From positions 1-21,446 of the IMG/VR virus record IMGVR_UViG_3300017729_000052: 21,446 bases of DNA. The stretch is one strand, 5' to 3'. The translations under genes and the position numbers were made by a program. Positions 6,108 through 21,446 of the stretch are shown piece by piece. Each line of letters opens with the position of its first letter. The first letter of the stretch is position 1. Source of the DNA: a virus. Below the pieces are notes generated by a model, which worked only from the letters and a program-made list of their open reading frames with translations, was not told the origin of the DNA and searched no databases.

Positions 6108-7517
6108 ATGGCAGCAATTATTACTGAACATTTCAGGCAACACAATGCAGAACAATTCTTTGAGTCGTTCTCTGAGGCAGCGCCAACAAGATATTACCTT
6201 TTTATTGGTAAGAGTACTCCATTTACACTATCTACTTCTGGTGGTTCGGATAACTCACCACCAGTTCCAAATGATGATGTAACTACGGAACATTATAAAT
6301 GGGATTCTATGCTTGCTGCCAAATTAATCTCATCTTCGGATGTTTCATACGTTATTCCAAGACGGAACTGGACTAACAACACACGATATGACATGTATGA
6401 ACATGACATTAGTTCAACCAATCCAACAACAAGTAATGTAACAAACCTGTATGGTAGTACATTTTACTTTATGACTTCTGACTATAGAGTCTATAAAGTA
6501 CTTGACAATAATGGTGGTGCTGTGTATAGTGGTAGTGAACCTACCTCTGAAACTTCAACTCCTTTTGAGTTGGGTGGATACAGACTACAATACATGTATA
6601 AGATTACAACTTCAGAAGTTACTAAGTTTTTAACATCAGATTTTATTCCAGTAAGTACTGATGCAACTGTATCAGGTGATGCCGTAGATGGTTCTTTGGA
6701 TGTTGTAAGAACAACCGCTGGTTCTGGATATACAGATGGAACTTATTATTCCCCAATAGATGGAGATGGTGCAAATGGTATCGTCAAGATTGTAGTATCT
6801 GGAAACTCTATTGTAAAACAAGGTTCGGCTGGAACTAACATATATGCGGGCGGAACAGGATATAGATTTGCTACTGTAGATTTAGGAAATGTTTTCAGTA
6901 ACACAGGATTAACCACAGCTGCAAATATCGGTTCTGGTTCTGGTGGTAAAGTAGAACCAATTATTTCACCAAAGGGTGGACATGGTAAAGATGCAGTACA
7001 TGAACTTGGTGCTCACTTTGTGATGACTAATATCAAACTAGAACAGAATGAAGGTTCAGATTTTACAATCGCAAATGACTTTAGAGAAGTTGGTATCATC
7101 AAAGACCCATTTAACTTTGGTACAACAACAGTTTCTACTGCTTCTACAGCGAGACAAACATTTAGTGTTACACTTACAGGTGCGCCAACTAAACCATATG
7201 AGATTGATGAAAAGATTACTCAGTCAACAACTGGTGCAATAGGTAAGGTTGTTGAGTTTGATGCTTCAAACAATATTATCTATTATCAACAGGAAAGATA
7301 TGCAAACTATGGTATCGCTGCAAACGGAAATGTTATTGCATTTAGTGGTTCTAATGTTATTACAGGTGGCACTAGTGGTGCTGTTGGTACTGCAAGTTCA
7401 TATGCAAATCCAGAACTACAACCAGACAGTGGGAAGGTTATCTATATAGAGAATAGACGCCCAATCTCTCGTGCGTCTGACCAAACAGAAGATATTAAAA
7501 TCGTAGTGGAATTCTAA
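6108..7517 (+). CDS. gp8: Baseplate wedge protein gp8 (469 aa, enlarged)
   Basis: The T4 gp8 signature is visible at both ends. N-terminal: EHFRQHNAEQFFESF then YYLFIGKSTPF (residues 7-38), and VIPRRNW (82-88) matching T4 VIPRRDW. C-terminal: GKVIYIENRRPISRASDQTE (442-461) matching T4 'GEMIYMENRPPI...DQTEEI' (T4 sequence from memory). gp8 is part of the baseplate wedge and binds gp10, gp7 and gp6 in T4. The protein is about 135 residues longer than T4 gp8 (334). The extra length appears to lie in two places. One is a 'GSGYTDG...AGGTGY' module around residues 200-265. The other is a 'YEIDEKITQSTTGAIGKV' module around 357-435. Start chosen at ATG 6108, with AGGAAAA at 6097-6103 and a late promoter just upstream. 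Only three bases separate it from the next gene. Confidence 0.9.
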   Translation: MAAIITEHFRQHNAEQFFESFSEAAPTRYYLFIGKSTPFTLSTSGGSDNSPPVPNDDVTTEHYKWDSMLAAKLISSSDVSYVIPRRNWTNNTRYDMYEHDISSTNPTTSNVTNLYGSTFYFMTSDYRVYKVLDNNGGAVYSGSEPTSETSTPFELGGYRLQYMYKITTSEVTKFLTSDFIPVSTDATVSGDAVDGSLDVVRTTAGSGYTDGTYYSPIDGDGANGIVKIVVSGNSIVKQGSAGTNIYAGGTGYRFATVDLGNVFSNTGLTTAANIGSGSGGKVEPIISPKGGHGKDAVHELGAHFVMTNIKLEQNEGSDFTIANDFREVGIIKDPFNFGTTTVSTASTARQTFSVTLTGAPTKPYEIDEKITQSTTGAIGKVVEFDASNNIIYYQQERYANYGIAANGNVIAFSGSNVITGGTSGAVGTASSYANPELQPDSGKVIYIENRRPISRASDQTEDIKIVVEF

Positions 7518-7520
7518 ACA

Positions 7521-10500
7521 ATGGAAAATACAAATCTTAATGTAGCCCCGTATTATGATGATTTTGCAGAAGACAAAAACTTTCATAGGGTACTCTTTCG
7601 GCCTGGGTTCTCAATCCAAGCGAGAGAGTTAACTGCACTTCAAACAATTTTACAAAACCAAGTTGAGAGACATGGTAGACATATGTTCAAAGAAGGAACA
7701 GTTGTCATCCCTGGCGCAACTGGTTTTACTAATGAATACTATGCAGTTAAACTACAGGGACTTTTGGAGACAACAGAAATCTCCACATACATTCAAGATT
7801 TTGTTGGAAAGAAAATTACTGGTTCAGCTAGTGGTGTTGTCGCAGAGGTTGTTCAAGCAGTCGCAGCAACTACAACTGATCCAATTACGCTATATGTAAA
7901 ATACGTTGCAACAGGTTCAGACAACACTACAGTCGTATTCCAAAACGGAGAAAAGATTTCTGCTGATGGAATCGTTGGTGCATTTGGCGCTGGTATTGAT
8001 TCTGCACAACTTCAAGCAACAGACGCAACTGCAACTGGTTCTTCTGCGAACATCCAAGAAGGTGTTTACTTTGTTCGTGGACATTTTGTTAAGGTATCAG
8101 AACAAAGAATTATCCTAGACAAGTATACAAACACACCATCTTATCGTGTTGGTTTGACGGTAACTGAAACTTTGGAAACTCCAGAAGAAGATACTTCTCT
8201 TTTGGATAATGCACAAGGTTCTTCAAACGTAAACGCTAAAGGCGCACACCGTCTAAAGATTTCTTTGACACTTGCAAAACTTACTTTAGATTCTGTAGAA
8301 GATGAGAACTTCATCGAACTTCTTAGAACTGATACAGGTGTTGTACAAGAGAAAGTTAGAAATACAGAATACTCAGTTCTCGGCGATACTCTCGCAAGAA
8401 GAACTTATGATCTATATGGTGACTTCACCATAAACAAATTCGATGTTGAAAAGTTAGAAACCTTGGATGATGGATTAAATGATGGTGTATATTCTACAGG
8501 CGAAACTACAGACAGTGGCAATACTGCATCTGATGATTTTTTGACAACACAAATATCGCCAGGCAAAGCATATGTTCGTGGTTATGAAATTGAAACAATT
8601 GTTCCAACATATGTTGACGTAGAAAAACCAAGAACCTTTAATTCTTTCAATGGTGCCGTTACTCCTGTTGAGGTTGGTAACTTTGCTTTGATTGAAAATG
8701 TTCATGGACAACCAGAAGTCACTCCAGAAATCTCAGGTTCAATCGGGAAACCATATCGTGACATTCAATTATTTGATACACAAAATTCAAGTGGTGGTTC
8801 ATCAAATGGAACGAAGATTGGTGTAGCACGTGTTCGTGCTATGGAACACCATGCAAATCAAACTGGAACTAGTGTTGGTGTAATGAACGCATCTGCTCAG
8901 TTCAAACTTTATATGTTTGATTTGAGAATGTTCACAAAGATTACAATGAGTGGAACTCCTGCCGGCGGTGCAGCTGGTGGTATGATTACAGGTGCAAAGG
9001 TAACTGGTGCAAACTCTGGTGCATATGGATTTGTACATAGTGATAGTACTGGTACATCACTTGTTCTCACAACAGTTGTTGGTGTTTTCCAAACTGGCGA
9101 GAAGTTGATTTCAACATCTTCTAGTGTTGCTGATGAATTTATGGAAACATCTGGTAATGCCGATGTTACTGTATCTGCTATTTCAAGTTTTAACTTTGAT
9201 GCAGTAAAACAAGTTTACATGGACAGTACTGCTGGTTCTGCTCAAGACTTTACTGCTGATTTGGTTCTTAACGATTCATTTACAGTCAATGGTACTATTA
9301 CTATTGCTAATGGAGACAAAGATGCTGTTGGTGGTTTCCAATCAGACTTTGCAAATGATGTAAGAGTTGGTGATATTGTTTCTCTTCCTACTGGTACTAA
9401 CGGTGCTTTACAAACTAGAAGAGTTGATTCTATATCTGGACAGACTTTAGATTTAAGTTCTGATGTTACTACAGCTGTAACATCTGTTCAGATGAAAAGA
9501 CTTAGGGCTAAACTTGTAGATCAAAATAAGAACGTACTTCTTAGAAAACTACAGAAGAATACAATCAAAACACTAAAGACAACTGCTAACAATTTTGTTA
9601 CAGATTCATCAGTTACAATTCGTAAGTCTTTTGTGGGTACAACTTCAAGTTCTGGTGTTGTTACATTTACAACAACAGGCGCAAACGAAACATTTAATTC
9701 TGTTGACAATGAAGATTATATTCTAGTTGTAACTGCCGCTGGTGGTGGTTCTGCTGCTGTTGGTGATATCATTAACCTCAACTCTAGTAATGTTACAGTT
9801 AGCAACGCTAGTACATCTTTAACAATTACTTCGACTTCTCTTTTAGGTAACGCTGCAACTGTAAGACTTATTGCTACATTAACTAAGACTGCTGCTGTAG
9901 AAAAAACTAAGGTTAGAAACAGAATGTCTATGACTATCGTAGACAATGATGGTGTTGGAGGCGGCGCAGCATTTGGTACTTCTGCACACGATCACGAAAT
10001 TTCTCTTGGTTATGCAGACATACATAAACTTCAGGCGGTATTCGAATCACCAAGTAGTTCAACCAACCCAAGACTTCCTCAATGGACTCTTACTGGTTCA
10101 ACTGGTGTGTTCCTTCAAGGTGAGATTGTTACTGGACAAACTTCAGGCGCTAAAGCATTCGTGATTAATCCACAATCTCCAATGACTTTCGTTCCTATCA
10201 GAGATGCAGTCTTTGATGCTAACGAACAAATTTTAGGACTAGAGAGTGGTGAAACTGCTACTCTAGAAACATTCTCTGCTGGTGACAAGTTAGTAACTAA
10301 TAACTTTACTTTAGACAGTGGACAGAGAGATAACTTTTATGATATAGGTAGACTTGTAAGGAAAGGAAATATTCCAGCTCCTGTAGGTAAGTTGCTGGTT
10401 GTGTTTGATTACTTCACTCACAGTACAGGCGATTTCTTTACTGTAGATTCATACTCTACTATTCCATATAAAGAAATTCCAACATACTCTGCTACTCGTG

Positions 10501-13500
10501 TTGACCCAGAGGTTGCAGAACCAAGTGGTGAATACGACTTGCGTGACACAGTTGACTTTAGGCCTCGTGTTGCTGATGCAACAATATCTGCTACAAATGT
10601 AACTCTTACAGACCCCGCTCAAATATATTCTGCTGGTAAAGTTACAAGTCTGTCATTTACTTTTGAGTCAAGGGATTTTGAAGGTAGTGGTGGGTCTGTA
10701 ACAAACATTCCAAAGGATGGTTCAAATTTCGGATATGATTTTGAATTTTATCTTCCAAGAATAGATGCATTATATCTCACTTCTAATGGACAATTTATTG
10801 TATCGAAAGGTACTCCTTCTGAGAATCCATCTGACCCTCCAGTTATCCAAGAAGCTATGTTGATTGCAGAACTCGCTCTAAATGCTTATATTATAAGCTT
10901 AGACGATGCACAATTGTTAATAAAAGATAGTCCAAAATATTCAATGTCTGACATTGCTAAGTTGGAAAGTCGTATTGACAATATGGAATATTATACTGTA
11001 CTTAACCTTTTGGAAAAGGATGCAGAGTCATTACAGATACAAGATGCAAACGGACTTGATAGATTTAAGTCTGGTTTCCTTGTAGATAACTTTGCTGGAC
11101 ACGCAACTGGTGATGTTAAACATCCAGACTATCGTGTTGCAGTAGACATGTCTGCTGGTGAGTTGCGTCCAAAATACTTTATGAAGAACGTATTGATGAA
11201 CGAAGATAATACTAATGAGACTGATCGTGCTTCTAGTAATTATCAGAAAACTGGTTCTATTCTTACTCTTCCATACGAACATAAAGTTACTGCTGAACAA
11301 CCATACGCTACTCGTGTAGAAAACCTTAACCCTGTATTAAACTTCTCATGGGCTGGTGATATGAGACTTACACCAGAAGGTGATGAGTGGTTTGAAACAA
11401 GAAGACTTCCAGACATTATTGTCAATAGAGAAGGTAACTTTGATTCAGTTCTTGCTGCAAATAGAAACGCAATTGGTACAGTTTGGAATGCATGGCAGAC
11501 TCAATGGAGTGGTGTTACTGCAACAAGTAGTACAAGATTCAGAGAAAGATCTTGGGCTCGTGCTCAACCTAGAGTTCCATTCCGTCCTATCATTGAAAGA
11601 ACTACATCAACTACTACAACAAATAGTACAAGAAGTGGTATTACTACTTCAGTTGTTCCTAGAATTAGTCAAGAGTCTAGAGGTGACAGAGTTGTATCTC
11701 GTGCAATCGTTCCATTCATTCGTGCAAGAAACGTACACTTTGAAGTAACAGGAATGAAACCTTTAACTCAGGTTTATCCATTCTTTGACAAAAGAAGTGT
11801 TGCTAAGTATGTGTTCCCTACTGGTGGTGGTGTTAAGGGTGTCGTATCAGACCTCGTAACTTCATTAGTTGGTTCTTGGAGTAGTATTTCTAAGATTGAA
11901 TTTGACTATCATAAAATTGGATCAGATCCATTGATTGCTACTACTATGTATCGTAATGATGGAACAACAGGATTTGATGATATTAATACACAACAATTGC
12001 CAGGTTCTACAAGATCAGTTGTTACTAATTCTGGATTGACATTAGTTCCAGATTCATCTGGTGAAGTTTCAATTAGAGGTTTCTTTACGGATACAAACAA
12101 TGCTCTTGGAACAGATGATAGATTATATGATGTTCGTGTTTACGACCAAGATGGAACTCTAATTCCTAGAAGTCTTTATCAAATTGAAAGTTCAAAAAGA
12201 TTTACTAATATTGGTAGGGCAATTGACTCTAGTACAAACAGTTTTGCATTCTTTAATACATCAAGATATTCTAATGCAGATAAACAGTGTGAGATTACAA
12301 TTAAAGTAATTGATGGTGCGAAAACATTGTTGCCTTCTAGTGGTAGACTGAAGAGATATGATTATCTTCGTGCAGACGAAACCTCTTTGGTTACAGACGC
12401 AGCTGGTTCTGTTGAAGGTTACTTTGCAATTCCAGATGCTAGAATGGCAAACAATCCAAGGTTCAGAACTGGTGAGAGAGTGTTTAGACTTACATCTTCA
12501 CCTACTAATACTAAGAGTCCAGAACCAGAAACTTTTGCACAGGCAACTTATACTGCTACTGGTGAAATCAGAAGTGTAAGAGAAACTATTGTTAGAACTC
12601 GTAATGCAAGAGTTGTCACAAGAAATGTAAACCAAACAAGAACAACAAGTAATACTGAAACAAGAGATGAGATTGTTGGTTGGTGGGATCCAGTTGCTCA
12701 ATCGTTTATGCCTCAAGTTGAGGGTGGTGAGTACATCACAAAGATTGATGTATTCTTCTCACAAGTGGATGATAATATTCCAGTTACATGTCAGATTCGT
12801 GAAATGAATACTGGTTATCCTACAACTAAAGTTCTGCCTTTTGCAAGTAAGACTTTGTTGCCTGAAGAGTGTGTGGTATCAAGTGATGCTACTGCTGCAA
12901 CAACATTTACTTTTGACGAACCAGTGTATGTTAAGAATGGTGTAGAGGTTGCAATTGTTCTGCAAACAGATTCGCCAGATTACCTCGTGTGGATTTCACG
13001 AATGGGTGAAAAGGATGTTGGTGGTAAGAGGCTTGTATCTGAACAACCATACTTGGGTGTTCTATTTAAGTCACAGAACAACTCTACATGGACAGCATAC
13101 GATATGGAAGATTTGAAATTCAAAATCTATCGTGCTAAATTTGATACAACAAAAACTGGTACAGTTAAATTTGTAAATGATGCCGTGGAAACTACTGATT
13201 TAGAAACTGATCCTATCAGATCATATAATGGTGTCACAAAGGTTAAGGTTCTACATAGAGACCATCACATGTATGATGACACAAAGAATAATGTCACTAT
13301 TAGTGGTATAACTTCTGGTGTAACATCTACACTGAATGGTGCAATAACAAACTCTGCAACAACTTTAACTCTTGCATCCACATTAACTGGTGTAGGAACA
13401 AGTACTGCTGTTACTCTAAAACTATTCTCTACAGATGCAGAAGGTGATCCAGTAACAGAAGTTGTTACAGGAACAACTAATGGATCGGATGCTAAGATTG

Positions 13501-14483
13501 TTGAAAGTATCACTCGTGGAGTAGAGGGAACTGCAATCGCACATGTAACTGGTATTACTGTAGAAAGATATAGTGTCAATAATATTCCTCTGACAGAGAT
13601 TAATAAGACGCATACAAATATCAACGATGTTGAGATTGATAGTTACACTATTCCAATTACATCTACACCAAACGCTGATGGAAGTTTTGGTGGTAGTTCT
13701 GGTATTGTTTCTGAAAATGCTCAGATGGATCAGATGCAGGCATTGTTCTCTACTATCGAAAGTCCAGACACATCTCTAACCGCTAAGATAAGAACTACAA
13801 GTGGTACTTCACCAAGTGGTACAGAGACTTCTTTTGTTAAACAGTCGGTATCACAGTCAGAGACTATTCCTATCAATGACAACTATGTTTTTGATAAACC
13901 AAGACTTGTTGCATCTCAGATTAACGAGACAAATGAAATGAGTGGTGAGAAGTCAATGGAATTGACATTCACTATGCAATCTCAAAAGGATAATCTATCT
14001 CCAATCATTGACTTGGAGAAGAGATCAATCGTGACAGTTGCAAACAGATTGGACAATGTTGATTCTGCTGCTGCTGTATATCCAACAACAGAATATACTC
14101 CACCAACTGCTCCAGATGGTGACAGTAATGAGTGTGTGTATATTACTCGTAAGGCACAGTTAAAGAATCCAGCAAACTCAATCAAGTGTTACTTGGATGC
14201 TGCTAAGTTTCAAAGTTCTGAAATTCAAGTAATGTTCAAGATACTTCGTTCTGATGATGCGTCAGACTTTGATGAGATTGGTTGGCAATATTTCAACACA
14301 GATGGTTCGCCAGATGTTGCAGTTAATGATTCAATAAATCCAGATGATTTTATTGAAAGAGTATATACTGCTGATGATATTGGTGAATTTATTTCCTTTG
14401 CTATCAAGATTAGACTGCAAGGAACAAACTCAGCAGAAGTTCCACGCTGTAAAGACTTACGAGCAATTGCATTGGCGACATAA
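7521..14483 (+). CDS. DUF4815-family giant virion structural protein (2320 aa)
   Basis: Starts three bases after gp8 with only a weak GTGGA (7506-7510), so translation is probably coupled to gp8. The N-terminus (YYDDF, then FHRVLFRPGFSIQARELTAL, residues 12-41) is the hallmark of DUF4815 proteins. Other family motifs follow: YDLRDTVDFRP (1005-1015), a coiled-coil-like IAKLESRIDNMEYYTVLNLL (about 1145-1164), GELRPKYFMKN, and VTGMKPLTQVYPFFDKR (about 1408-1424). A second recognisable domain begins at GWWDPVAQSFMP (1720) with ITKIDVFF and IREMNTGYPTTKV. A beta module with 'ITRGVEGTAIAHVTG' lies near 1995-2010, and the C-terminus is a beta domain (DSNECVYITRKAQL... onward). 'SGA'-type modules recur near 92, 486 and 864. 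The molecular role is not established. As a gp8-linked, very long protein it is probably a baseplate-peripheral arm or fibre. No protease, lysozyme or membrane motif was seen. Confidence 0.75.
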   Translation: MENTNLNVAPYYDDFAEDKNFHRVLFRPGFSIQARELTALQTILQNQVERHGRHMFKEGTVVIPGATGFTNEYYAVKLQGLLETTEISTYIQDFVGKKITGSASGVVAEVVQAVAATTTDPITLYVKYVATGSDNTTVVFQNGEKISADGIVGAFGAGIDSAQLQATDATATGSSANIQEGVYFVRGHFVKVSEQRIILDKYTNTPSYRVGLTVTETLETPEEDTSLLDNAQGSSNVNAKGAHRLKISLTLAKLTLDSVEDENFIELLRTDTGVVQEKVRNTEYSVLGDTLARRTYDLYGDFTINKFDVEKLETLDDGLNDGVYSTGETTDSGNTASDDFLTTQISPGKAYVRGYEIETIVPTYVDVEKPRTFNSFNGAVTPVEVGNFALIENVHGQPEVTPEISGSIGKPYRDIQLFDTQNSSGGSSNGTKIGVARVRAMEHHANQTGTSVGVMNASAQFKLYMFDLRMFTKITMSGTPAGGAAGGMITGAKVTGANSGAYGFVHSDSTGTSLVLTTVVGVFQTGEKLISTSSSVADEFMETSGNADVTVSAISSFNFDAVKQVYMDSTAGSAQDFTADLVLNDSFTVNGTITIANGDKDAVGGFQSDFANDVRVGDIVSLPTGTNGALQTRRVDSISGQTLDLSSDVTTAVTSVQMKRLRAKLVDQNKNVLLRKLQKNTIKTLKTTANNFVTDSSVTIRKSFVGTTSSSGVVTFTTTGANETFNSVDNEDYILVVTAAGGGSAAVGDIINLNSSNVTVSNASTSLTITSTSLLGNAATVRLIATLTKTAAVEKTKVRNRMSMTIVDNDGVGGGAAFGTSAHDHEISLGYADIHKLQAVFESPSSSTNPRLPQWTLTGSTGVFLQGEIVTGQTSGAKAFVINPQSPMTFVPIRDAVFDANEQILGLESGETATLETFSAGDKLVTNNFTLDSGQRDNFYDIGRLVRKGNIPAPVGKLLVVFDYFTHSTGDFFTVDSYSTIPYKEIPTYSATRVDPEVAEPSGEYDLRDTVDFRPRVADATISATNVTLTDPAQIYSAGKVTSLSFTFESRDFEGSGGSVTNIPKDGSNFGYDFEFYLPRIDALYLTSNGQFIVSKGTPSENPSDPPVIQEAMLIAELALNAYIISLDDAQLLIKDSPKYSMSDIAKLESRIDNMEYYTVLNLLEKDAESLQIQDANGLDRFKSGFLVDNFAGHATGDVKHPDYRVAVDMSAGELRPKYFMKNVLMNEDNTNETDRASSNYQKTGSILTLPYEHKVTAEQPYATRVENLNPVLNFSWAGDMRLTPEGDEWFETRRLPDIIVNREGNFDSVLAANRNAIGTVWNAWQTQWSGVTATSSTRFRERSWARAQPRVPFRPIIERTTSTTTTNSTRSGITTSVVPRISQESRGDRVVSRAIVPFIRARNVHFEVTGMKPLTQVYPFFDKRSVAKYVFPTGGGVKGVVSDLVTSLVGSWSSISKIEFDYHKIGSDPLIATTMYRNDGTTGFDDINTQQLPGSTRSVVTNSGLTLVPDSSGEVSIRGFFTDTNNALGTDDRLYDVRVYDQDGTLIPRSLYQIESSKRFTNIGRAIDSSTNSFAFFNTSRYSNADKQCEITIKVIDGAKTLLPSSGRLKRYDYLRADETSLVTDAAGSVEGYFAIPDARMANNPRFRTGERVFRLTSSPTNTKSPEPETFAQATYTATGEIRSVRETIVRTRNARVVTRNVNQTRTTSNTETRDEIVGWWDPVAQSFMPQVEGGEYITKIDVFFSQVDDNIPVTCQIREMNTGYPTTKVLPFASKTLLPEECVVSSDATAATTFTFDEPVYVKNGVEVAIVLQTDSPDYLVWISRMGEKDVGGKRLVSEQPYLGVLFKSQNNSTWTAYDMEDLKFKIYRAKFDTTKTGTVKFVNDAVETTDLETDPIRSYNGVTKVKVLHRDHHMYDDTKNNVTISGITSGVTSTLNGAITNSATTLTLASTLTGVGTSTAVTLKLFSTDAEGDPVTEVVTGTTNGSDAKIVESITRGVEGTAIAHVTGITVERYSVNNIPLTEINKTHTNINDVEIDSYTIPITSTPNADGSFGGSSGIVSENAQMDQMQALFSTIESPDTSLTAKIRTTSGTSPSGTETSFVKQSVSQSETIPINDNYVFDKPRLVASQINETNEMSGEKSMELTFTMQSQKDNLSPIIDLEKRSIVTVANRLDNVDSAAAVYPTTEYTPPTAPDGDSNECVYITRKAQLKNPANSIKCYLDAAKFQSSEIQVMFKILRSDDASDFDEIGWQYFNTDGSPDVAVNDSINPDDFIERVYTADDIGEFISFAIKIRLQGTNSAEVPRCKDLRAIALAT

Positions 14484-14484
14484 C

Positions 14485-14712
14485 ATGACAGAATATATCA
14501 AAGTAGAAGAACACCCTAAACTTGTAAGAGATACATATTCTCGTGCAATTATTAATACAGACGTATATGCATACGAAGCTGCAATTACAAGATCAAGAAA
14601 TGCTAAACAGCAAAAAGATGATATGAGAGATGCAGTAAGGGATATAAATAACTTAAAGAGTGAGATGCATGAAATTAAGTCCTTGCTTCTAAAACTAGTG
14701 GATAAAGAATAA
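14485..14712 (+). CDS. Small charged coiled-coil protein of marine T4-like phages (75 aa)
   Basis: The start is placed at ATG 14485, one base after the stop of the giant gene. An upstream in-frame ATG at 14344 would overlap that gene by 140 bases and read as non-protein-like sequence. The product begins MTEYIKVEEHPKLVRD, has an AIINTDVYAYEAA segment (residues 21-33), and ends in a heptad-like, highly charged helix (about residues 38-75, DDMRDAVRDINNLKSEMHEI then LLLKLVDKE). The 'INTD-x-x-AY' plus terminal coiled coil pattern is one I know from small uncharacterised proteins in cyanophage and pelagiphage structural regions. It may be a small virion connector or assembly factor; no function is known. 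No clear ribosome site precedes it, so it is probably read by coupling. It overlaps the next gene by one base (TAATG). Confidence 0.75.
   Translation: MTEYIKVEEHPKLVRDTYSRAIINTDVYAYEAAITRSRNAKQQKDDMRDAVRDINNLKSEMHEIKSLLLKLVDKE
14643..14650 (+). promoter_or_regulatory. Possible internal late promoter box
   Basis: A perfect TATAAATA lies inside the 75-residue gene, 62 bases before the ATG at 14712. It is read as codons for Asp-Ile-Asn. If used, it would start transcripts near 14656 and drive the short fibre-like gene and what follows. In AT-rich coding DNA the match could be chance, so this is tentative. Confidence 0.4.
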
Positions 14713-15122
14713 TGGCAGATAGAAACGCACCTTCATCATTTACTTTAGAAGAGTGGAGAGTAGAGTTTAATGAACTGGCATCAGATGTTGGTGATGTTAC
14801 CTCTCTTCCTTCTACTGTAAATGGACAGAACGTAACAGATGTTGTTGGGGCAGTTGTTCAACTTGAAAGCGCTCTATCTTCTGTAATGTTCCCTACGGTT
14901 ATTGATTTTGATGACTCTTCGGGCGTAGCTTCTGAAAGAATTTTAATGGGTACACATGACGATCTCCAACTGTACCATGATGGAACAAAATCAGTAGTAA
15001 GTCACACAGGGACAGGTGAATTAGAACTTATTTCTAATACAACAACCTTGACATTTCCGAATGTTGGTGGTAAAATAGCTACTGAAGGTTTTGGAATTGC
15101 TCTTGCGATTGCACTTGGTTAA
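14712..15122 (+). CDS. Short tail-fibre-like protein (136 aa)
   Basis: ATG 14712 overlaps the previous stop. The N-terminus (SSFTLEEWRVEFNELASDVG, residues 8-27, then VTDVVGAVVQLE) is an attachment-type segment that starts many marine T4-like fibre genes. It is followed by a module with DDLQLYHDG (83-91) and GTGELELISN (about 99-108). In larger fibres that module is repeated; here it occurs once. The end, LTFPNVGGKIATEG then FGIALAIALG, is a 'LPD..GK'-type strand, like one in the gp10-type protein at 3883-4911, plus a hydrophobic C-terminal tail. The protein is complete, so it is a minimal fibre: attachment domain, one shaft module and a hydrophobic tip, perhaps a trimerisation or docking stub. 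Function inferred from modules only. Confidence 0.65.
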   Translation: MADRNAPSSFTLEEWRVEFNELASDVGDVTSLPSTVNGQNVTDVVGAVVQLESALSSVMFPTVIDFDDSSGVASERILMGTHDDLQLYHDGTKSVVSHTGTGELELISNTTTLTFPNVGGKIATEGFGIALAIALG

Positions 15123-15126
15123 GACT

Positions 15127-15134
15127 TATAAATA
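15127..15134 (+). promoter_or_regulatory. T4-type late promoter box (TATAAATA)
   Basis: A perfect TATAAATA lies in the 36-base gap, five bases after the stop of the preceding gene and 25 bases before ATG 15159. The predicted start of transcription is near 15140, followed by an AAAGGAAAA ribosome site (15144-15152). It probably drives the 15159-17806 gene run. Confidence 0.75.
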
Positions 15135-15158
15135 ATAGAGATTAAAGGAAAATAATAA

Positions 15159-15503
15159 ATGGCTAATAACTTTAAGAATGCATTTGCAACGAGTGTCAGT
15201 ACTAATGGCAGTTCACCTACAGATGTATATACAGCAAACAATGGTTCTGCCTGTAACTCCATTCTAATTGAACTTGATATCGCAAACACAGGTGTATCTG
15301 CTGTTCAGATTTCTGTTGTGATTAGAGATAGTAGTGGTAGTGCATCATTTCATCTAGTTAAAAACGCTCCAGTTCCAGTTGGATCTTCTTTGAAGGTTGT
15401 TTCTGGACAGAAGATTGTTTTGAATGGTAATGATAAAGTACAGGTTTATGCTACTGCAAATACTGTGGACGTTATTGCATCAGTTCTAGAAGACGTAGCA
15501 TAA
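15159..15503 (+). CDS. Small beta-rich virion protein, 'MANNFKNAF' family (114 aa)
   Basis: ATG 15159 follows AAAGGAAAA and a late promoter. The product begins MANNFKNAFATSVS and contains HLVKNAPVPVGSSLKVVSGQ (residues about 65-84), KIVLNGNDKVQVYA and a final VDVIASVLEDVA. This is the pattern of a small, all-beta protein that I recognise from many marine phage tail regions. It has alternating hydrophobic strands throughout, one cysteine, no signal peptide and no membrane segment. The family probably forms a small beta-sandwich that decorates the tail or a fibre, but no function has been assigned. It sits between two fibre-type genes, with a 12-base gap containing GAGGGG before the next gene. 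Confidence 0.7.
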   Translation: MANNFKNAFATSVSTNGSSPTDVYTANNGSACNSILIELDIANTGVSAVQISVVIRDSSGSASFHLVKNAPVPVGSSLKVVSGQKIVLNGNDKVQVYATANTVDVIASVLEDVA

Positions 15504-15515
15504 GAGGGGTAGATA

Positions 15516-16325
15516 ATGTCTAACTACATCGGCACTCCATTTGTGAATCAAGTATCTCCCGCTTTTCAGCAGGAAGATTTTACTGATTCAAATTTTGGAA
15601 ACGTAACAGTAGGTTCTACTACACACACAAACTCTACTACCTTGTCACAACAAGTGCCGGGCGGAAACGGAGAAAATATACTCGTTGTAATTAATAACGT
15701 AATTCAACAAGCAACATCTGCATATACTATTCAACAGGATGCAAATGGTGAACCAAAGATTTTGAAACTTGCAGGAGCTCCTGCTTCTAGTTCTATAATC
15801 TATGTTGTTCATAGAGGTATTGGTGGATTCCAAATGAAACCACCTACAGGTTCAGTCGGTGCAGATGAACTTGCAGCAAACTTAAAGTCTTTTACCAATG
15901 ATGTATTCACAGGTAATGGTTCAGCTACTGCATTCACTCTGTCAGAGACACCACCAAATGCAAACTCAGTTTTAGTATTTGTTGATGGTATCCTACAGAA
16001 GTCTTCATCAAACTATTCAATAAGTGGTACAACACTCACATTTACTTCTGCACCAGATGCTAGTGCAGAGATTGAGGCAAAACATTTTGGTATTCGTGGA
16101 GTAGTTCGTAGAAGTACAGACTATCAATATGATGCATTTACTGGAAACGGTTCTGCGACAACATTTAATTTAAGTACATCTGGTGCAACAACTAATAGTG
16201 CTTTTGTTTTTTATAACGGTATAGCACTTAAACCTTCCACAGACTATTCTATCAGTGGTATTGTTTTAACAACAACATTCACACCAATTAACGCATCTGA
16301 AATCACAGTGAGGTATCAAATCTAA
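15516..16325 (+). CDS. Fibre protein built of three repeated beta domains (269 aa)
   Basis: ATG 15516 is preceded by GAGGGG (15504-15509). After a short N-terminus (MSNYIGTPFVNQVSPAF), the protein has three copies of one domain, about residues 28-104, 128-195 and 205-269. The pattern is FTGNGSAT-x-F-x-LS, then V-x-V-x-x-x-G-x-x-x-x-x-x-x-Y-x-I, then a terminal strand. Copies 2 and 3 share FTGNGSAT (A/T)F almost exactly; copy 1 is diverged (HTNSTTL, NILVVINNVIQ). The domain resembles the 'VRFNGILQ...DYSV...' segment of T4 gp10, and the same unit occurs once at the start of the protein at 17839. It is probably a stalk or adaptor on which fibres are mounted. The gene overlaps the next by one base (TAATG), with GTGAGG (16308-16313) as ribosome site. 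Confidence 0.7.
   Translation: MSNYIGTPFVNQVSPAFQQEDFTDSNFGNVTVGSTTHTNSTTLSQQVPGGNGENILVVINNVIQQATSAYTIQQDANGEPKILKLAGAPASSSIIYVVHRGIGGFQMKPPTGSVGADELAANLKSFTNDVFTGNGSATAFTLSETPPNANSVLVFVDGILQKSSSNYSISGTTLTFTSAPDASAEIEAKHFGIRGVVRRSTDYQYDAFTGNGSATTFNLSTSGATTNSAFVFYNGIALKPSTDYSISGIVLTTTFTPINASEITVRYQI
16128..16322 (+). repeat. Third copy of the FTGNGSAT beta domain
   Basis: This is a tandem protein-level repeat inside the 15516-16325 gene. Copy 2 lies at 15897-16097 and copy 1, more diverged, at about 15598-15827. The DNA of copies 2 and 3 is only moderately similar, so the duplication is old rather than a recent slippage event. Confidence 0.6.
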
Positions 16326-17449
16326 TGCCAAGTAACTCAAAAAACCTAGCAGAACTCTTAAATACAGACACTACATTGGCTGCTGGAGATGTTGCATCTG
16401 GTTCTATTACAGCAGCTAAACTTGCTTCTAATGCAGTAACAACTGCAAAGATTGCTGCCGATGCAGTAACAGATGCAAAGGCAGACATCACAGCTGATGC
16501 AATATCTGATAAAGCAAATGCTTCTACAGGATATATACAAATACCAAAGGGAACAACTGCACAACGTCCAAGCAGTCCAGCAGATGGAATGATTAGATAT
16601 AATTCAACTCTTGACCTCTCAGAAGAATATAGAGATGGTCAATGGAGAGCGTTATCTAATGTTATTACCATAAGTGGAGGTACAAAAACAACCTCTGGTG
16701 GTTATACTATTCATACATTCACATCATCTGGAACTTTCTTGATTGATGGTGGTAATTTAACTGGTGTAGATTATCTAGTTGTCGCTGGTGGCGGCGGCGG
16801 TGGTTCTAGAAGAGCTGGTGGCGGTGGCGGCGGTGGAATGGTCAACGCAACCAACCAAACCATAACAGCAGGAGCTCACACAGTCACAATCGGTGCTGGT
16901 GGTGCTGGTGCTACTAGTGACACTGCTAATGGAGTAGTAGGTGGAAACACTTCTTTTGGCTCAATCCAAACTTGTACTGGTGGTGGTTACGGTGGTGGTG
17001 AAGCAAAAACAGGAGGCGCTGGCGGCTCTGGAGGCGGTGGTTCAGACGGGCAAGGGCCTGGTTCTGGAACTTCTGGTCAAGGTAATGCTGGTGGTACTTC
17101 TTTTGGTTCTTCTGGAGGCGGTGGAGGCGGCGGCAAAGGTGCCGTTGGTGAAGCTGGTGGAACAGACGGAGCAACAGAAGGTGGCGATGGCGGTGGCGGT
17201 TTAACACTCGCATACAGTGGAAGTTCAGTCGCATACGCTGGAGGCGGCGGTGGTGGAAGTCGTGATGGAGGAGCTGGTGGTACTGGTGCTAGTGGTGGTG
17301 GTAATGGTGGTGTAGATAATTCAACCGTAGCTACAGCAGGAGCCGCAAATAGAGGCGGTGGAGGCGGCGGTGGTGGTCGTAACGGCGGTACACCATTTGT
17401 TGGTGCTAACGGTGGTTCTGGTGTCGTTATTATTAGGTATCAAACGTAG
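16325..17449 (+). CDS. Second glycine-rich tail fibre / adhesin (374 aa)
   Basis: ATG 16325 overlaps the previous stop (TAATG). Residues 1-65 hold an attachment-type start (NSKNLAELLNTDTTL) and ten-residue repeats (GSITAAKLAS, NAVTTAKIAA, DAVTDAKADI) with lysines at 32, 42 and 52. A short domain with GTTAQRPSSPADGMIRYNS (about 78-96) and EEYRDGQWRAL follows; this 'RP.sp..G.iryN' motif is common in phage fibre proteins. From residue about 131 (TFTSSGTFLID) a glycine-rich domain runs to the end. It has the same order of landmarks as the product of 4933-5724: a strand into GGGG, VTIGAGG, a 'TSFGS' element, and a closing GVVIIRYQT. It is longer and richer in Gly runs. Likely receptor-binding, by analogy with polyglycine adhesins. 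The DNA here has dense GGT/GGC/GGA runs. Confidence 0.75.
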   Translation: MPSNSKNLAELLNTDTTLAAGDVASGSITAAKLASNAVTTAKIAADAVTDAKADITADAISDKANASTGYIQIPKGTTAQRPSSPADGMIRYNSTLDLSEEYRDGQWRALSNVITISGGTKTTSGGYTIHTFTSSGTFLIDGGNLTGVDYLVVAGGGGGGSRRAGGGGGGGMVNATNQTITAGAHTVTIGAGGAGATSDTANGVVGGNTSFGSIQTCTGGGYGGGEAKTGGAGGSGGGGSDGQGPGSGTSGQGNAGGTSFGSSGGGGGGGKGAVGEAGGTDGATEGGDGGGGLTLAYSGSSVAYAGGGGGGSRDGGAGGTGASGGGNGGVDNSTVATAGAANRGGGGGGGGRNGGTPFVGANGGSGVVIIRYQT

Positions 17450-17458
17450 GAGATTATT

Positions 17459-17806
17459 ATGGCACATTTTGCAAAAGTACTTAATGGAATAGTAGAAAAT
17501 ATTATAGTAGCAGAACAAGAGTTTATGGATACTTTTATTGATGACTCTCCAGGCGAATGGATTCAAACTTCATATAATACAAAAGAAGGTGTACATTCAG
17601 ATGGTGGTACTCCTTTAAGAAAAAACTATGCCATAATTGGTGGTACATATGATTCAACTAGAGATGCATTTATTCCTCAAAAACCATATCCAAGTTGGAC
17701 TTTAGATGAAGACAAATGTATTTACGTTGCACCCAAAGCATATCCAACTGACGGAAAAGATTATGATTGGGACGAGGACAAAACCTCTTGGATTGAATCA
17801 GACTAA
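17459..17806 (+). CDS. Small 'MAHFAK' family protein, possible fibre companion (115 aa)
   Basis: The ribosome site TAGGAG (17447-17452) includes the stop codon of the glycine-rich gene; ATG is at 17459. The product starts MAHFAKVLNGIVENIIVAEQ and contains WIQTSYNTKEG (about residues 34-44), GTPLRKNYAIIGGTYDSTRD (50-69) and PYPSWTLDEDKCIYVAP (about 76-92). It ends in an acidic YDWDEDKTSWIESD. I recognise this family from marine T4-like phages, next to fibre genes, but no function is assigned. Its start echoes that of the chaperone-like protein at 5724 (MKALILDGIVVDV), and it likewise follows a glycine-rich fibre. A companion or chaperone role is therefore plausible but unproven. It is acidic, Trp/Tyr-rich, with one cysteine and no signal peptide. 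Confidence 0.7.
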   Translation: MAHFAKVLNGIVENIIVAEQEFMDTFIDDSPGEWIQTSYNTKEGVHSDGGTPLRKNYAIIGGTYDSTRDAFIPQKPYPSWTLDEDKCIYVAPKAYPTDGKDYDWDEDKTSWIESD

Positions 17807-17838
17807 ATAGTATTATAAAAGATATGGGAAATAATTAA

Positions 17839-19164
17839 ATGCCATTTATAGGAAAACAACCAGAAGTAGGTGCATACTCTAAGTTAGACGCTATTACTGC
17901 GTCTGCTACTGCAACGTATAATCTAACTTTAGATAGTAGTGCATACTATCCAACAAGTGCAAATCATCTATTGGTTTCTCTGAACGGTGTCATGCAGGCT
18001 CCACAAGATTCATTCACAGTAAGTGGTTCGACAATCGTATTCGACTCTGCTCTAACAAGTTCTGATAGTATCGACTTTATCATGGCACTTGGTGACGTTC
18101 TAGATATTGGAACTCCAAGTGATGGTACAGTAACAAGTGCAAAACTTGATACAAATCTTTCTGCTACTACGTTGGATGTGACTAACCTAACATCTAAAGA
18201 TGATTTTATAGTTAATGGTACTGGAAGCAATTCGTCAAACTCTTTTACTATACAGCAGGGTACTAATGGATATGTTAGATCAAATAATAACTTGTATCTT
18301 GGTACACAAAATACGGATAGAGTTGCCATTATAAGTGGTAAAGTCGGTATTCAACATATGACACCTACAACGCCTTTACATGTAGAAACAGCTGGTGGTG
18401 GTAATTTTGTTGCTAAATTCAAAAATACTACTACTGCCACACCTTATGGTGTTCATGTACAAGATGCTAGCAGTGGTGCTAACGGATACCCTCTATTCCA
18501 AGTAACAGACCATGCAGGCACTGCCACATATTTTAGAGTTGATAGTGGAACGAGAAGGGCATATTTTAACAGTGCCGCAACTTACAATAATTCGGCTGTA
18601 AACATTAAAACTGATGTAGACAAAAATGGCATTGGAATTCATGCACTGAAATCATCAAACTCTAATTACTATTTTCTGAATTTTAGGACTGGCAGTGGTA
18701 CTACAGAAGTTGGTAATATTTATTCTAATGGTAGTAATACAACATATGCTACATCTTCAGATTATCGGCTTAAAGAAAATGTAAAAGATTTAGAAAATGC
18801 ATCTGATAGATTGAATCAATTAAATCCTAAGAGATTTAACTTTATTAATGATGAAACTAATACTCTAGTAGATGGATTCTTAGCGCATGAAGTACAGTCA
18901 ATTGTTCCAGAAGCAGTTGTTGGAGAAAAAGATGCAACAAAAGAAGAAGAGTATATTAAAACTGAAGCTGTTCTAGAAGTTCGTGATGAAGATGGAAAAG
19001 TATTAAAAGAAGAAGTTCCAGCTGTTATGGGAAAAAGAACAGTTGACTCATATCAAGGCATAGATCAAAGCAAACTTGTGCCTCTACTAGTCGCTTCTCT
19101 GCAAGAAGCTCTTGCAGAAATTGAAACCTTAAAAACTCGTGTGAAAACATTAGAAGATGCATAA
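17839..19164 (+). CDS. Tail fibre/spike with C-terminal S74 intramolecular chaperone (441 aa)
   Basis: ATG 17839 follows GGGAA (17826-17830). Residues 1-88 comprise MPFIGKQPEVGAYSKLDAIT and one copy of the repeated beta domain (HLLVSLNGVMQAPQDSFTV). A 'TVTSAKLDTNLSATTLDV' segment and a beta shaft follow (about 110-300; KVGIQHMTPTTPLHVETAG is a common fibre motif). The C-terminal part is a peptidase S74 / intramolecular chaperone domain: SSDYRLKENV at 306-315, GFLAHEVQSIVPEAV, YQGIDQSKLVPLL and a final coiled coil. In this family the domain helps the trimer fold, then cuts itself off. The Ser-Lys pair would be Ser307 and Lys312, with cleavage between 306 and 307. An unusual acidic stretch (about 368-403) sits inside the domain. 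The mature fibre would be about 306 residues. Confidence 0.85.
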   Translation: MPFIGKQPEVGAYSKLDAITASATATYNLTLDSSAYYPTSANHLLVSLNGVMQAPQDSFTVSGSTIVFDSALTSSDSIDFIMALGDVLDIGTPSDGTVTSAKLDTNLSATTLDVTNLTSKDDFIVNGTGSNSSNSFTIQQGTNGYVRSNNNLYLGTQNTDRVAIISGKVGIQHMTPTTPLHVETAGGGNFVAKFKNTTTATPYGVHVQDASSGANGYPLFQVTDHAGTATYFRVDSGTRRAYFNSAATYNNSAVNIKTDVDKNGIGIHALKSSNSNYYFLNFRTGSGTTEVGNIYSNGSNTTYATSSDYRLKENVKDLENASDRLNQLNPKRFNFINDETNTLVDGFLAHEVQSIVPEAVVGEKDATKEEEYIKTEAVLEVRDEDGKVLKEEVPAVMGKRTVDSYQGIDQSKLVPLLVASLQEALAEIETLKTRVKTLEDA

Positions 19165-19192
19165 AATATATAGAAACTTAGGAAATTAACAA

Positions 19193-20338
19193 ATGGCGTT
19201 GATTAAATTAAATACAAGAAGTATCCCAGACAATGCGGTGACGCCTGCCAAGGTATCACAAAACCTTGGGCGCAGAAATATGATAATTAATGGCGCCATG
19301 CAAGTATCACAATACGGCACCTCCGCAACAGGTATTACGAGTGGCAGCAATCTAACAGCAGATAGGTTTAGTTTTTCTACAGGAACTAATGGTGGTACAT
19401 ATACATTATCTACAACTACAACCGTTCCATCTGGTGAAGGATTCGAAAAAAGTCTAAAAATTGATTGTACAACTGCCGGAAATTATTCTACTGCTGGTAC
19501 TGCCACTATGTTAAGATGTTCGCCATTTGAAATTCAAGATTGTGCAAGACTAGCATACGGAACTTCTAGTGCAAAGAAATTAACAGTGTCATTTTGGACT
19601 CGTGCTAGTTATACAGGAACATTTACAGCATTGCTTGTAACACATGATTCTGCACAAAGAAATATTATAAAGACATTTACTATCTCTTCTGCTAACACAT
19701 GGCAAAAGGTTGTTCTAACTTATGATGGAGATACTGGAAGTACATTCACTGGGGCTGACATTAATCTGGGATTAAGCTTAGATATTTGGTTTGGTGGTGG
19801 AACTGATTATACTGGTGGTTCTCAAACAGATGGTGTCTGGAGAGCTCGATCAACACATAACACTTCTGTCTTACAAGGTAATGGTACATTGTTTGGTACA
19901 AACACTTCCCATGACTTCTATATAACAGGAGTACAGGTAGAAATTGGCGATGCAGCTACAGATTTCGAACACCGATCATATGGTGAAGAACTTGACCTTT
20001 GTGAACGCTATTTTCAAACTTATTCAAACCGAAACTGGCAAGGAACTAATGAACACGCAGTTAACTATAGTTTGTACTTGGATGGAGTTTTTACAAAAAA
20101 AATGAGATCTGCTCCAGCAGCAAGTATAGTTGGATTAGTAACTATTGGTAGACCACAAGTTTCTGTGAGTCAAAGACCAAACGTCATTGACGGTATATCT
20201 AATACTGGTTTTAGAGTGTGTCGATGGCCATCCAGTGGAACTTATGGTGGGTCGTTAGGTTCACATGGTGATGCGTATTATAGAATGTCAGTCGGTACTG
20301 GGCCTACAAATCGAATTGATTTTAGTGCTGAACTTTAA
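19193..20338 (+). CDS. Tail fibre tip / receptor-binding protein, GRRN family (381 aa)
   Basis: ATG 19193 follows TTAGGAAA. The N-terminus (SIPDNAVTPAKVSQNLGRRN, then MIINGAMQVSQ) has one AV-TPAK element and the GRRN-x-x-ING motif found in many fibre-tip or prophage tail proteins. A lectin-like beta-sandwich follows, about residues 50-260, with KLTVSFWTRA and NTWQKVVLTYDGD. Next comes ITGVQVEIGDAATDFEHRSY then GEELDLCERYF (about 246-280), another landmark of this family. The C-terminal 100 residues appear unique to this gene and would be the variable receptor-facing part. Function inferred from family motifs: trimeric host-recognition tip. It is paralogous to the truncated gene at 20536. Cysteines near 92, 106, 114, 270 and about 343 are unusual for a fibre but need not pair. 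Confidence 0.75.
   Translation: MALIKLNTRSIPDNAVTPAKVSQNLGRRNMIINGAMQVSQYGTSATGITSGSNLTADRFSFSTGTNGGTYTLSTTTTVPSGEGFEKSLKIDCTTAGNYSTAGTATMLRCSPFEIQDCARLAYGTSSAKKLTVSFWTRASYTGTFTALLVTHDSAQRNIIKTFTISSANTWQKVVLTYDGDTGSTFTGADINLGLSLDIWFGGGTDYTGGSQTDGVWRARSTHNTSVLQGNGTLFGTNTSHDFYITGVQVEIGDAATDFEHRSYGEELDLCERYFQTYSNRNWQGTNEHAVNYSLYLDGVFTKKMRSAPAASIVGLVTIGRPQVSVSQRPNVIDGISNTGFRVCRWPSSGTYGGSLGSHGDAYYRMSVGTGPTNRIDFSAEL
19955..19980 (+). repeat. Direct repeat in fibre-tip paralogues (first copy)
   Basis: These 26 bases (GCTACAGATT ... CGATCATA) recur at 21145-21170 with a single difference (C to T at the tenth base or so). They encode ATDFEHRSY in both fibre-tip genes. The copies are about 1.19 kb apart in direct orientation and so could support recombination between the two genes. 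Confidence 0.7.
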
Positions 20339-20350
20339 GGGAGATATATT

Positions 20351-20533
20351 ATGAAAATAATTACAGATGCACAGTATATAAAAAATGAAGATAAAGTAAA
20401 TCAGACTATTTTTTGTAAAATTAATGGTAAGGAATGGAGTATTCCAATGGACGTAGACAATTCTGATTATGCAGAAATTCTAAAACAAGTGTCTGATGGT
20501 ACTTTAACAATTAAAGATGCTGATGAGGAATAA
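20351..20533 (+). CDS. Small acidic fibre-associated protein (60 aa)
   Basis: ATG 20351 is preceded by a strong AAGGGAG (20337-20343) that begins with the last base of the upstream stop. The product MKIITDAQYIKNEDK..., with KINGKEWSIPMDVDNSDYAE (about residues 24-43) then ILKQVSDGTLTIKDADEE, belongs to a kind of short protein that often follows fibre-tip genes in phages. The recurring pattern is 'sVP.D..N.dYaEi..qv..G.L.i'. It is acidic, 60 residues long and has no membrane segment. Function is unknown; by position it may assist folding of the adjacent tip protein. It lies between two paralogous tip genes, two bases before the second, and carries that gene's ribosome site (GAGGA, 20525-20529). 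Confidence 0.75.
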   Translation: MKIITDAQYIKNEDKVNQTIFCKINGKEWSIPMDVDNSDYAEILKQVSDGTLTIKDADEE

Positions 20534-20535
20534 AA

Positions 20536-21446
20536 ATGGCACTTAGTAAAGTAAATCCAAGTCTAGTTCAAAACTTTGGACGTAGAAATCTTTTAATCAA
20601 TGGCGACTTTCAAGTTAATCAGAGAGGCGATGGTAGTGGTGTAGGTACTAATGCTGGTTATGTAGGTGTCGATAGATGGCGTGCTTATATTTCAACTAGT
20701 AGTACCGTAAATTTTGTTCAACAAACATTTGCGAATGGACACTCAGATGTTGATAGAAACTTGCGTCACTATTTGAAATTTGATTGGTTAGGAACTGGTG
20801 CTGCTCAAACAAAAACTTTAACCCAACACATAGATAATGTTAATACAGGCAATGGACAAAAGGTTACTGTTTCTTTTTGGGGAAGAACAGAACAAGGAGA
20901 TGATTGTGTCCTAAAATTATACCAAGTTTTTGGAAGTGGTGGTTCTTCGACTGTTGAGCATGCTAGTGGAACAATTGATCTTACAACATCATGGAAATAT
21001 TTCACACATACATTTGATGTGACTTCAACTTCTGGTAAGACAACTGGAGCAGGGAATAAATTAAGTTTAGAATTTGTATTTGGCCCAGCAACACTGAATT
21101 CATACTTTGAAGTAGCAGGAGTTCAACTAGAACTTGGCGACACTGCTACAGATTTTGAACACCGATCATACGCAGAAGAACTTTCGGCTTGTCAGAGGTA
21201 CTTTGAGCGTCAACATTACCCTGCTAACGATCAAGTGTGTGTTTCAATGAAATGGTCTGGGTACGGATACATGGGTCACATTACCTGTATGGAAGTCAAA
21301 AGAACAGAACCGACTGTAAGTTCTACTGGGATAGTTAAGCACATGGGGCAGGCGTCCTTCTCTAACACTGTCTCACCAACATGGCAGTATATGACTCCCC
21401 AAGGTGTTGGGATATATTCAACTCCAACTAGCGGGCCAACAGGTGA
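20536..21446 (+). CDS. Second GRRN-family fibre tip protein (3' end outside window)
   Basis: The frame is open from ATG 20536 to the window edge, 303 codons so far, with GAGGA at 20525-20529. It begins MALSKVNPSLVQNFGRRNLL, INGDFQVNQRGDG, with YVGVDRWRAY next, as in many fibre tips. The body is a lectin-like beta-sandwich (QKVTVSFWGRTEQGDD at about 113-128, TSWKYFTHTFDV). VQLELGDTATDFEHRSYAEE follows (about 196-215), then LSACQRYFERQ. The layout follows that of the gene at 19193, with strong similarity at both landmark segments and little between them. The last 80 residues present (WSGYGYMGH... onward) have no counterpart upstream and are likely variable. It was easy to miss because it has no stop in the window. 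Confidence 0.75.
   Translation, partial: MALSKVNPSLVQNFGRRNLLINGDFQVNQRGDGSGVGTNAGYVGVDRWRAYISTSSTVNFVQQTFANGHSDVDRNLRHYLKFDWLGTGAAQTKTLTQHIDNVNTGNGQKVTVSFWGRTEQGDDCVLKLYQVFGSGGSSTVEHASGTIDLTTSWKYFTHTFDVTSTSGKTTGAGNKLSLEFVFGPATLNSYFEVAGVQLELGDTATDFEHRSYAEELSACQRYFERQHYPANDQVCVSMKWSGYGYMGHITCMEVKRTEPTVSSTGIVKHMGQASFSNTVSPTWQYMTPQGVGIYSTPTSGPTG
21145..21170 (+). repeat. Direct repeat in fibre-tip paralogues (second copy)
   Basis: This is the second copy of the 26-base segment at 19955-19980, 25 of 26 bases identical, encoding the ATDFEHRSY segment that precedes the variable end of the tip protein. Confidence 0.7.

Follow-up and report, generated by a model that had tools for sequence, protein, structure and literature searches.

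Heads and tails of tandem phage tail-tip genes are exchanged separately between phages at a conserved connector

The sequence analysed here (the window) is an IMG/VR virus record of 21,446 bases, which carries two tandem tail-tip genes, A and B, at the end of a row of fibre-type genes and ends inside gene B. Both tip genes are real open frames where the original prediction had placed them, A at 19193-20338 and B from 20536 to the window's end. Their parts, and the small ORF between them, are given below (L numbers are our handles for loci; the F codon is that of the ATDFEHRSY motif; domain names for A follow its predicted structure).

19193..20338, + strand: gene A, tip protein of 381 residues, with an anchor of about 25 residues, a predicted CBM4-like head, a connector and a beta tail (open frame; phrog_4492; AlphaFold model)
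19259..19305, + strand: joint 1 of A, GRRN-x-x-ING start and predicted first jelly-roll edge (79% DNA match to B)
19306..19913, + strand: exchangeable head of A, predicted jelly roll (model fold match; 94% DNA in L004, absent from L005, L006, L007 and L008)
19914..20014, + strand: joint 2 of A, predicted last head strand, ATDFEHRSY and helix, F codon at 19964 (74% DNA match to B)
20015..20335, + strand: exchangeable tail of A, terminal SAEL (about 80% DNA in L005 and L007, lost in L004)
20351..20533, + strand: 60-residue ORF between A and B, joint 3 together with the tip's stop (the same ORF type after 54 of 170 family genes tested)
20536..21446, + strand: gene B, second tip, 303 residues visible, no stop because the record ends (open frame; phrog_4492)
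20569..20615, + strand: joint 1 of B (79% DNA match to A; heads differ past it in comparison with L004)
20616..21103, + strand: exchangeable head of B (80% DNA in L084 over 20582-21200, which has a different tail)
21104..21204, + strand: joint 2 of B, F codon at 21154 (74% DNA match to A; L085 identity begins here)
21205..21446, + strand: visible part of the tail of B (96% DNA in L085 over 21103-21446)

Among the cultured phages searched, the nearest by backbone was Methylophilales (OM43) phage Melnitz, to which the 7521-14483 gene was 68% identical in DNA over a 3-kb test stretch and the 655-3840 gene 53% identical in protein. The 7521-14483 gene, upstream of the tips, matched records annotated VrlC; in Melnitz the neck genes come after the corresponding region, and the window stops before its own downstream side. 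The two genes are best explained as two copies of one modular adhesin of the tail tip, carried within the host-recognition cluster of a T4-like marine phage that is related to Melnitz. The fibre gene adjoining A (17839-19164) has an S74 chaperone domain at its end; its N-terminal stretch recurs in Melnitz at 80% DNA, and in its L004 version the first 103 residues are 97% identical and followed by an unrelated C-terminus, so that this gene looks like the holder of another exchange joint. The N-terminal anchor of a glycine-rich protein (16325-17449) starts ORFs with an A-type tip head in L219, L281 and L285, and because this anchor precedes A-type heads in relatives, the tips seem also to move between anchors. 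The small ORF at 20351-20533 has a terminus (...YAEILKQVxxGxLTIxDAD) that occurs in many loci, and its Melnitz counterpart is annotated as a 'tail assembly chaperone'.

A and B are paralogues (28% protein identity over 268 residues, E 4e-20), with strong DNA matches in two places only: 19259-19305 with 20569-20615 (37 of 47 bases, 79%) and 19914-20014 with 21104-21204 (75 of 101 bases, 74%). All remaining blastn pieces had E values of at least 0.059. Likeness in DNA is confined to the start and the motif, as claimed; the tails are not entirely different, in that members of the family have an MRxxP element and an AEL-type C-terminus in common. The GRRN-x-x-ING start and the VQ-x-E-x-GD-x-ATDFEHRSY-x-EEL segment are present in both genes but are family-wide rather than peculiar to the pair, the connector consensus of the family being VQxExG..TDFEHRSYxEELxxCxRY; MRxxP is common to the family tails examined, and an AEL terminus was found in 69 of 99 complete family tails, most of which end in AEL or a like triplet. 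A 26-base near-identical stretch, also part of the original prediction, is there (25 of 26 bases match), at a level reached by 532 of 13,544 otherwise unrelated between-genome family pairs, which makes it high and not unique. In profile searches both genes matched phrog_4492, a tail fiber protein family (E 1.3e-45 for A and 1e-54 for B), through the C-terminal part of the profile alone (approximately positions 781-1075 of 1096); the window genes are stand-alone copies of what forms the terminal part of phrog_4492.

An AlphaFold model of A was built from 52 sequences (mean pLDDT 82), and the architecture of B was assigned by homology to A. In the model, residues 1-24 are of low confidence and are followed by a beta head, after which come a helix (263-271) and another beta domain (274-378). 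Residues 27-252 matched the CBM4-2 structure 2y6j (Z 13.4, rmsd 2.8, 160 residues aligned) at 14% identity, a likeness of fold only, and the head fold also matched phage spike and fibre domains (5w6h, Z 11.2; 7xyc, 10.5; 9b45, 9.7). The Foldseek list for the head also contains unrelated beta-sandwich domains, some from bacterial toxins, and a shared fold shows no function. The modelled head of A has the beta jelly-roll fold of the Pfam CBM_4_9 family; at the sequence level, the CBM_4_9 profile scored B at 16.2 bits against a curated cut-off of 25.9 and did not list A at E 0.1, and a sequence search against solved structures returned nothing strong (best E 0.0042). Because the head model matches CBM4-type modules, the conserved start is predicted to be the first edge of the jelly roll, and the motif its last strand (248-251) plus the helix leading into the next domain. 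Modelled alone, the tail of A reached a pLDDT of 88.8; its fold, considered as a possible H-type or R-pyocin-type terminal lectin, was weakly matched by spike C-termini (4ru4 and 4ru5, Z 5.5), discoidin (4.9) and a pyocin fibre (4.1), with no Foldseek match at E 0.001. From N- to C-terminus, the predicted tip consists of a short anchor, a jelly-roll head with a CBM4-like fold, the strand-helix connector and a further beta domain, and is a putative binder of host surface glycans.

Hybrids of the window's own genes were found on both sides of the motif. L004, on another contig, is 97% identical to the window over 13285-18148 and 94% identical over 19170-20019, which includes the head of A, after which its tail is unrelated; it rejoins the window at 91% identity over 20474-20587, where the small ORF ends and B starts, before continuing into another head. 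At base level, L004 and A agree through ATDFEHRSY and diverge after it. The tail of A and the small ORF occur in L005 and L007 at about 80% DNA behind other heads, with matches starting at 19911 and 19923, respectively, and L006 and L008 also have the tail of A and not its head. At joint 1 of A the homology of many relatives stops. For gene B, L084 has the head at 80% DNA (20582-21200) with another tail, and L085 has the tail at 96% DNA (21103-21446) with another head; in the stretch shown by the alignment, identity between L085 and B is complete starting 7 bases upstream of the F codon and is about 30% ahead of the connector. In the six pairs inspected base by base, the junctions are in register and free of visible indel scars.

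For a family-wide test, 206 loci plus the window yielded 260 family ORFs, of which 239 contained the motif (21 without the motif pattern were dropped) and 219 of these were full length; merging identical genes left 180, to which the cut gene B was added, giving 181 genes from 148 loci. The data set was selected by similarity to A, B or the motif, most of its genes come from metagenome contigs, and the motif scan gave at least 119 stretches, so that copy numbers are not a census. A backbone-protein scan supplied context for the arrays and few tip genes, with 30 matches in the loci that it added; these loci stand outside the break-point and codon sets. Two genes were scored as sharing a half when identity times coverage was at least 60 and as not sharing it below 30. 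Among the 16,290 pairs, which are not independent, 68 shared the head and 35 the tail; one half was shared without the other in 68 pairs and both in 13. The tail fell below 30 in 53 head-sharing pairs and the head in 15 tail-sharing pairs, and head and tail similarity are nearly uncoupled across the 181 genes.

Break points were counted from in-register DNA matches of at least 150 bases and at least 78% identity, once per lineage pair. Of 31 in-gene break points, 29 lay within -80 to +75 of the F codon (p 7e-20 against an expected fraction of 0.179) and the remaining 2 inside the head; when every lineage was counted a single time, the median was 13 of 15 in the connector. These positions cannot be placed much more finely than the connector, which is similar in all members. 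A looser count, in which both genes end in the same zone, gave right ends of 63 at joint 1 or upstream, 22 in the head (most just past the start joint), 17 in the connector, 0 in the tail and 143 at joint 3 or downstream, and left ends of 64, 2, 15, 0 and 196 in the same order. This distribution defines three joints, located at the start, at the connector, and at the C-terminal end together with the small ORF. L022 and L054 illustrate the flanking joints: their 96% identity reaches as far as the start joint, and 93% identity sets in near the stop. The layout foreseen originally, exchange at conserved flanks, has therefore to be corrected to three joints, with head and tail traded separately.

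The same joints are present in isolate genomes, for which 17 of 50 matching records were used (15 chosen records and two of Melnitz). The Synechococcus myoviruses RB11-B and S-B05 match at 96% as far as the start joint, have different heads, and match again at 95.6% starting 41 bases ahead of the F codon; the podoviruses WH11-B and S-B28 follow the same pattern, at 99.1% up to the start joint and 95.8% from 60 bases before the F codon. Tails are replaced in the myoviruses S-N03 and MA01: their 92% identity extends to 55 bases beyond the F codon, and they match again, at 96%, starting 19 bases ahead of the stop. The heads of S-B43 and RB11-B are 100% identical and their tails unrelated; Venkman and MEP401 have a common head (69%) and no common tail. 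A tip-profile match was obtained in 16 of the 17 isolate records tested, the exception being Melnitz-3, in which other genes occupy the place of the Melnitz tip gene and small ORF, between flanks that are 98.6-100% identical. Around this place (approximately 7010-13230, L288 and L289) several genes differ between the otherwise nearly identical phages Melnitz and Melnitz-3, and several of these genes keep a common N-terminus while the rest is replaced. According to the Melnitz paper (PMC9004378), one isolate has nine genes in this region whose lengths are altered, and four Melnitz isolates, one of them with the region altered, had the same host range when tested on three OM43 strains. S-H34, S-N03 and MA01 (L294, L295 and L296) have 10-12 tip-profile matches each, some partial, so that large tip arrays occur in isolates.

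Taken together, the hybrids, break points and isolate joints show that head and tail are exchanged separately between phages at the conserved connector. The proposal of tip exchange by recombination at conserved flanks is borne out by hybrids on both sides of the motif for both genes, by the break-point statistics and by isolates with matching flanks; natural hybrids exist and divergence is uneven along the length, not the absence of hybrids and equal divergence that had been named as counting against it.

Two or three copies of the tip are carried by 29 of 148 loci among the loci listed. Not one of the 37 same-contig pairs has a head or a tail in common at the threshold of 60, so the copies on one contig differ. 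The deletions or hybrids between the window's two copies that had been suggested were not found, and because no same-contig pair shares a half, exchange runs between phages and not between the window copies. The other half of the original prediction, two tips of different specificity carried at once, is compatible with A and B differing in both modules; since copies on one contig differ, multiple specificities fit the data and are not shown by them.

How the joints arise was considered against several explanations. Chimeras made by metagenome assemblers at the shared motif could in principle mimic the hybrids, as exact matches between unrelated genes reach 95 bases there (30 at the 99th percentile) and the window itself stops inside gene B. 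Isolate genomes, however, have the same joints, the shared half is 78-95% identical in most hybrid pairs and not near 100%, and some whole arrangements recur across contigs (L132 and L160 at 97%, L084 and L086 at 98%, L157 and L168 at 99.8%); as a general explanation chimeras are refuted by the isolate joints and are very improbable, though single contigs could still be chimeric. That no exchange took place at all, and that constrained ends were kept while heads and tails diverged rapidly from a common ancestor, would agree with the family-wide conserved ends and with the MRxxP and mostly AEL-type ends kept in the tails examined, but is refuted for the window's genes because no single rate yields both the L004 pattern (97% backbone and 94% head of A against an unrelated tail) and the L085 pattern (96% tail against an approximately 30% head); it retains almost no probability. 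A programmed switch within one genome, by a diversity-generating retroelement, an invertase or recombination of tandem copies, could account for adjacent tandem copies sharing joint codons within a contig and is scarcely credible given the 0 of 37 same-contig pairs that share a half and the single weak inverted pair (29 nt, 76%) within 17800-21446. Genes for a reverse transcriptase and for a resolvase or invertase were each found in 0 of 10 isolate records, a survey of isolates, the window itself being a fragment of its genome.

The alternative that keeps exchange at the connector is random (illegitimate) joining anywhere followed by selection for folded tips, in which the connector is a protein hinge with no role in crossover. 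In its favour, the connector coincides with a predicted domain boundary and its synonymous codons are not specially conserved between unrelated genes, where codon identity was 1.08 of expected (1.15 in a VSFW control block); the same value led us to reject a DNA-level recombinase site at the motif. As the connector lacks clear DNA conservation beyond that of the protein, selection for workable junctions could give the same map. Donor identity was ordinary in most of the hybrid-plus-donor triples (28 of 39 with exact runs below 20 bases), and the 11 of 39 with donor runs of at least 20 identical bases all came from two hybrid genes, so that the triples leave the mechanism unsettled. Against random joining, tandem copies on one contig share joint codons beyond expectation, with observed/expected ratios of 1.32 at the connector (26 pairs) and 1.51 at the start (25 pairs) and 0 of 5000 resamples reaching them; after thinning to 15 unrelated loci, the ratios were 1.42 for the connector core (95% 1.25-1.57) and 1.44 for the start (1.25-1.66), compared with 1.07 between contigs. 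Same-contig controls showed no clear excess (VSFW 1.12, AEL 0.76, random positions 1.03, the first two with few codons). This excess at the joints over the between-contig value suggests that the joints recombine as DNA, and the in-register, scar-free junctions of the six inspected pairs also speak against random joining. A RecA-type recombinase was matched in 7 of 10 isolate records, with no match in S-B43 and both podoviruses. Homology-driven crossover is judged about twice as likely as random joining with selection, which is a possible but less probable account; exchange at the connector stands under both.

The full explanation that we favour, modular tips whose heads and tails are exchanged at three joints by homology-driven crossover, is judged likely. 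Crossovers between phages fall at these three places. The connector would be conserved as it fits many heads to many tails, and would at the same time supply enough local DNA identity for strand exchange; the crossovers would be ordinary, mismatch-tolerant homologous recombination during co-infection, and the exchange would change receptor choice, against which stands the equal tested host range of Melnitz isolates with different tips. More tentatively, and with the balance of probability against it, the tips may belong to a shared combinatorial adhesin pool in which heads and tails reassort freely, by way of a shared protein connector, among marine myo-, sipho- and podoviruses, and the two joints of the tandem copies in each genome are kept alike in DNA by local conversion. 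If so, the joints would stay usable as recombination ports for incoming modules.

With a defined exchange point in a tip that several phage groups use, break points become a record of how new combinations of adhesin parts arose in marine phages that are not in culture. The host-range question is also divided into two testable ones, the ligand of the head and the ligand of the tail, and isolate pairs with one half exchanged already provide natural experiments.

In T-even phages, adhesin segments (gp37/gp38) are swapped at conserved motifs (Tetart 1998 and Trojet 2011, as cited in PMC3797505; for background on T4 fibres, PMC6957217). The present tips resemble gp37/gp38 in having variable receptor-binding parts between conserved segments, in the exchange of segments between phages and in lying at the distal tail-fibre locus of T4-like phages. 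They differ from that system, as far as it is set out in these sources, in that the joint is a strand-helix connector between predicted domains and not glycine-rich motifs, and in that both sides of the joint are traded. No relationship to gp38 was seen in family profile scans of the window proteins; the window tips work like T-even adhesin exchange and are not members of that system. The setting resembles the variable host-recognition cluster of pelagimyophages and cyanomyophages, between VrlC and a neck gene (PMC7029224), and metaviromic islands with fibre genes (PMC3909814), with which the window shares its position downstream of a VrlC-type gene and its variable fibre and carbohydrate-binding genes; in the parts of these reports available, however, it is the island, whole genes or C-terminal regions that vary, and here the two halves of a tip vary separately. 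Whole-domain mosaicism of receptor-binding proteins is prominent in tail fibres and spikes (PMC10684548), and unlike the tail-fibre example given there, in which the N-terminus is kept and the C-terminus replaced, the middle joint described here frees both halves. The fold of the head is that of domains in CBA120 TSP4 (5w6h), Kp7 gp52 (7xyc), K2-2 TSP (8iqe) and the Pa193 fibre (9b45), with Z scores of 9.7-11.2 and 10-20% identity to the window head. No description of a connector-mediated separate exchange of two tip domains in several phage groups was found in searches that covered few subscription journals, a weak negative. The swapping of adhesins at conserved motifs is known, and what appears new is that two domains are separately traded at one shared connector, an unusually clear form of such exchange.
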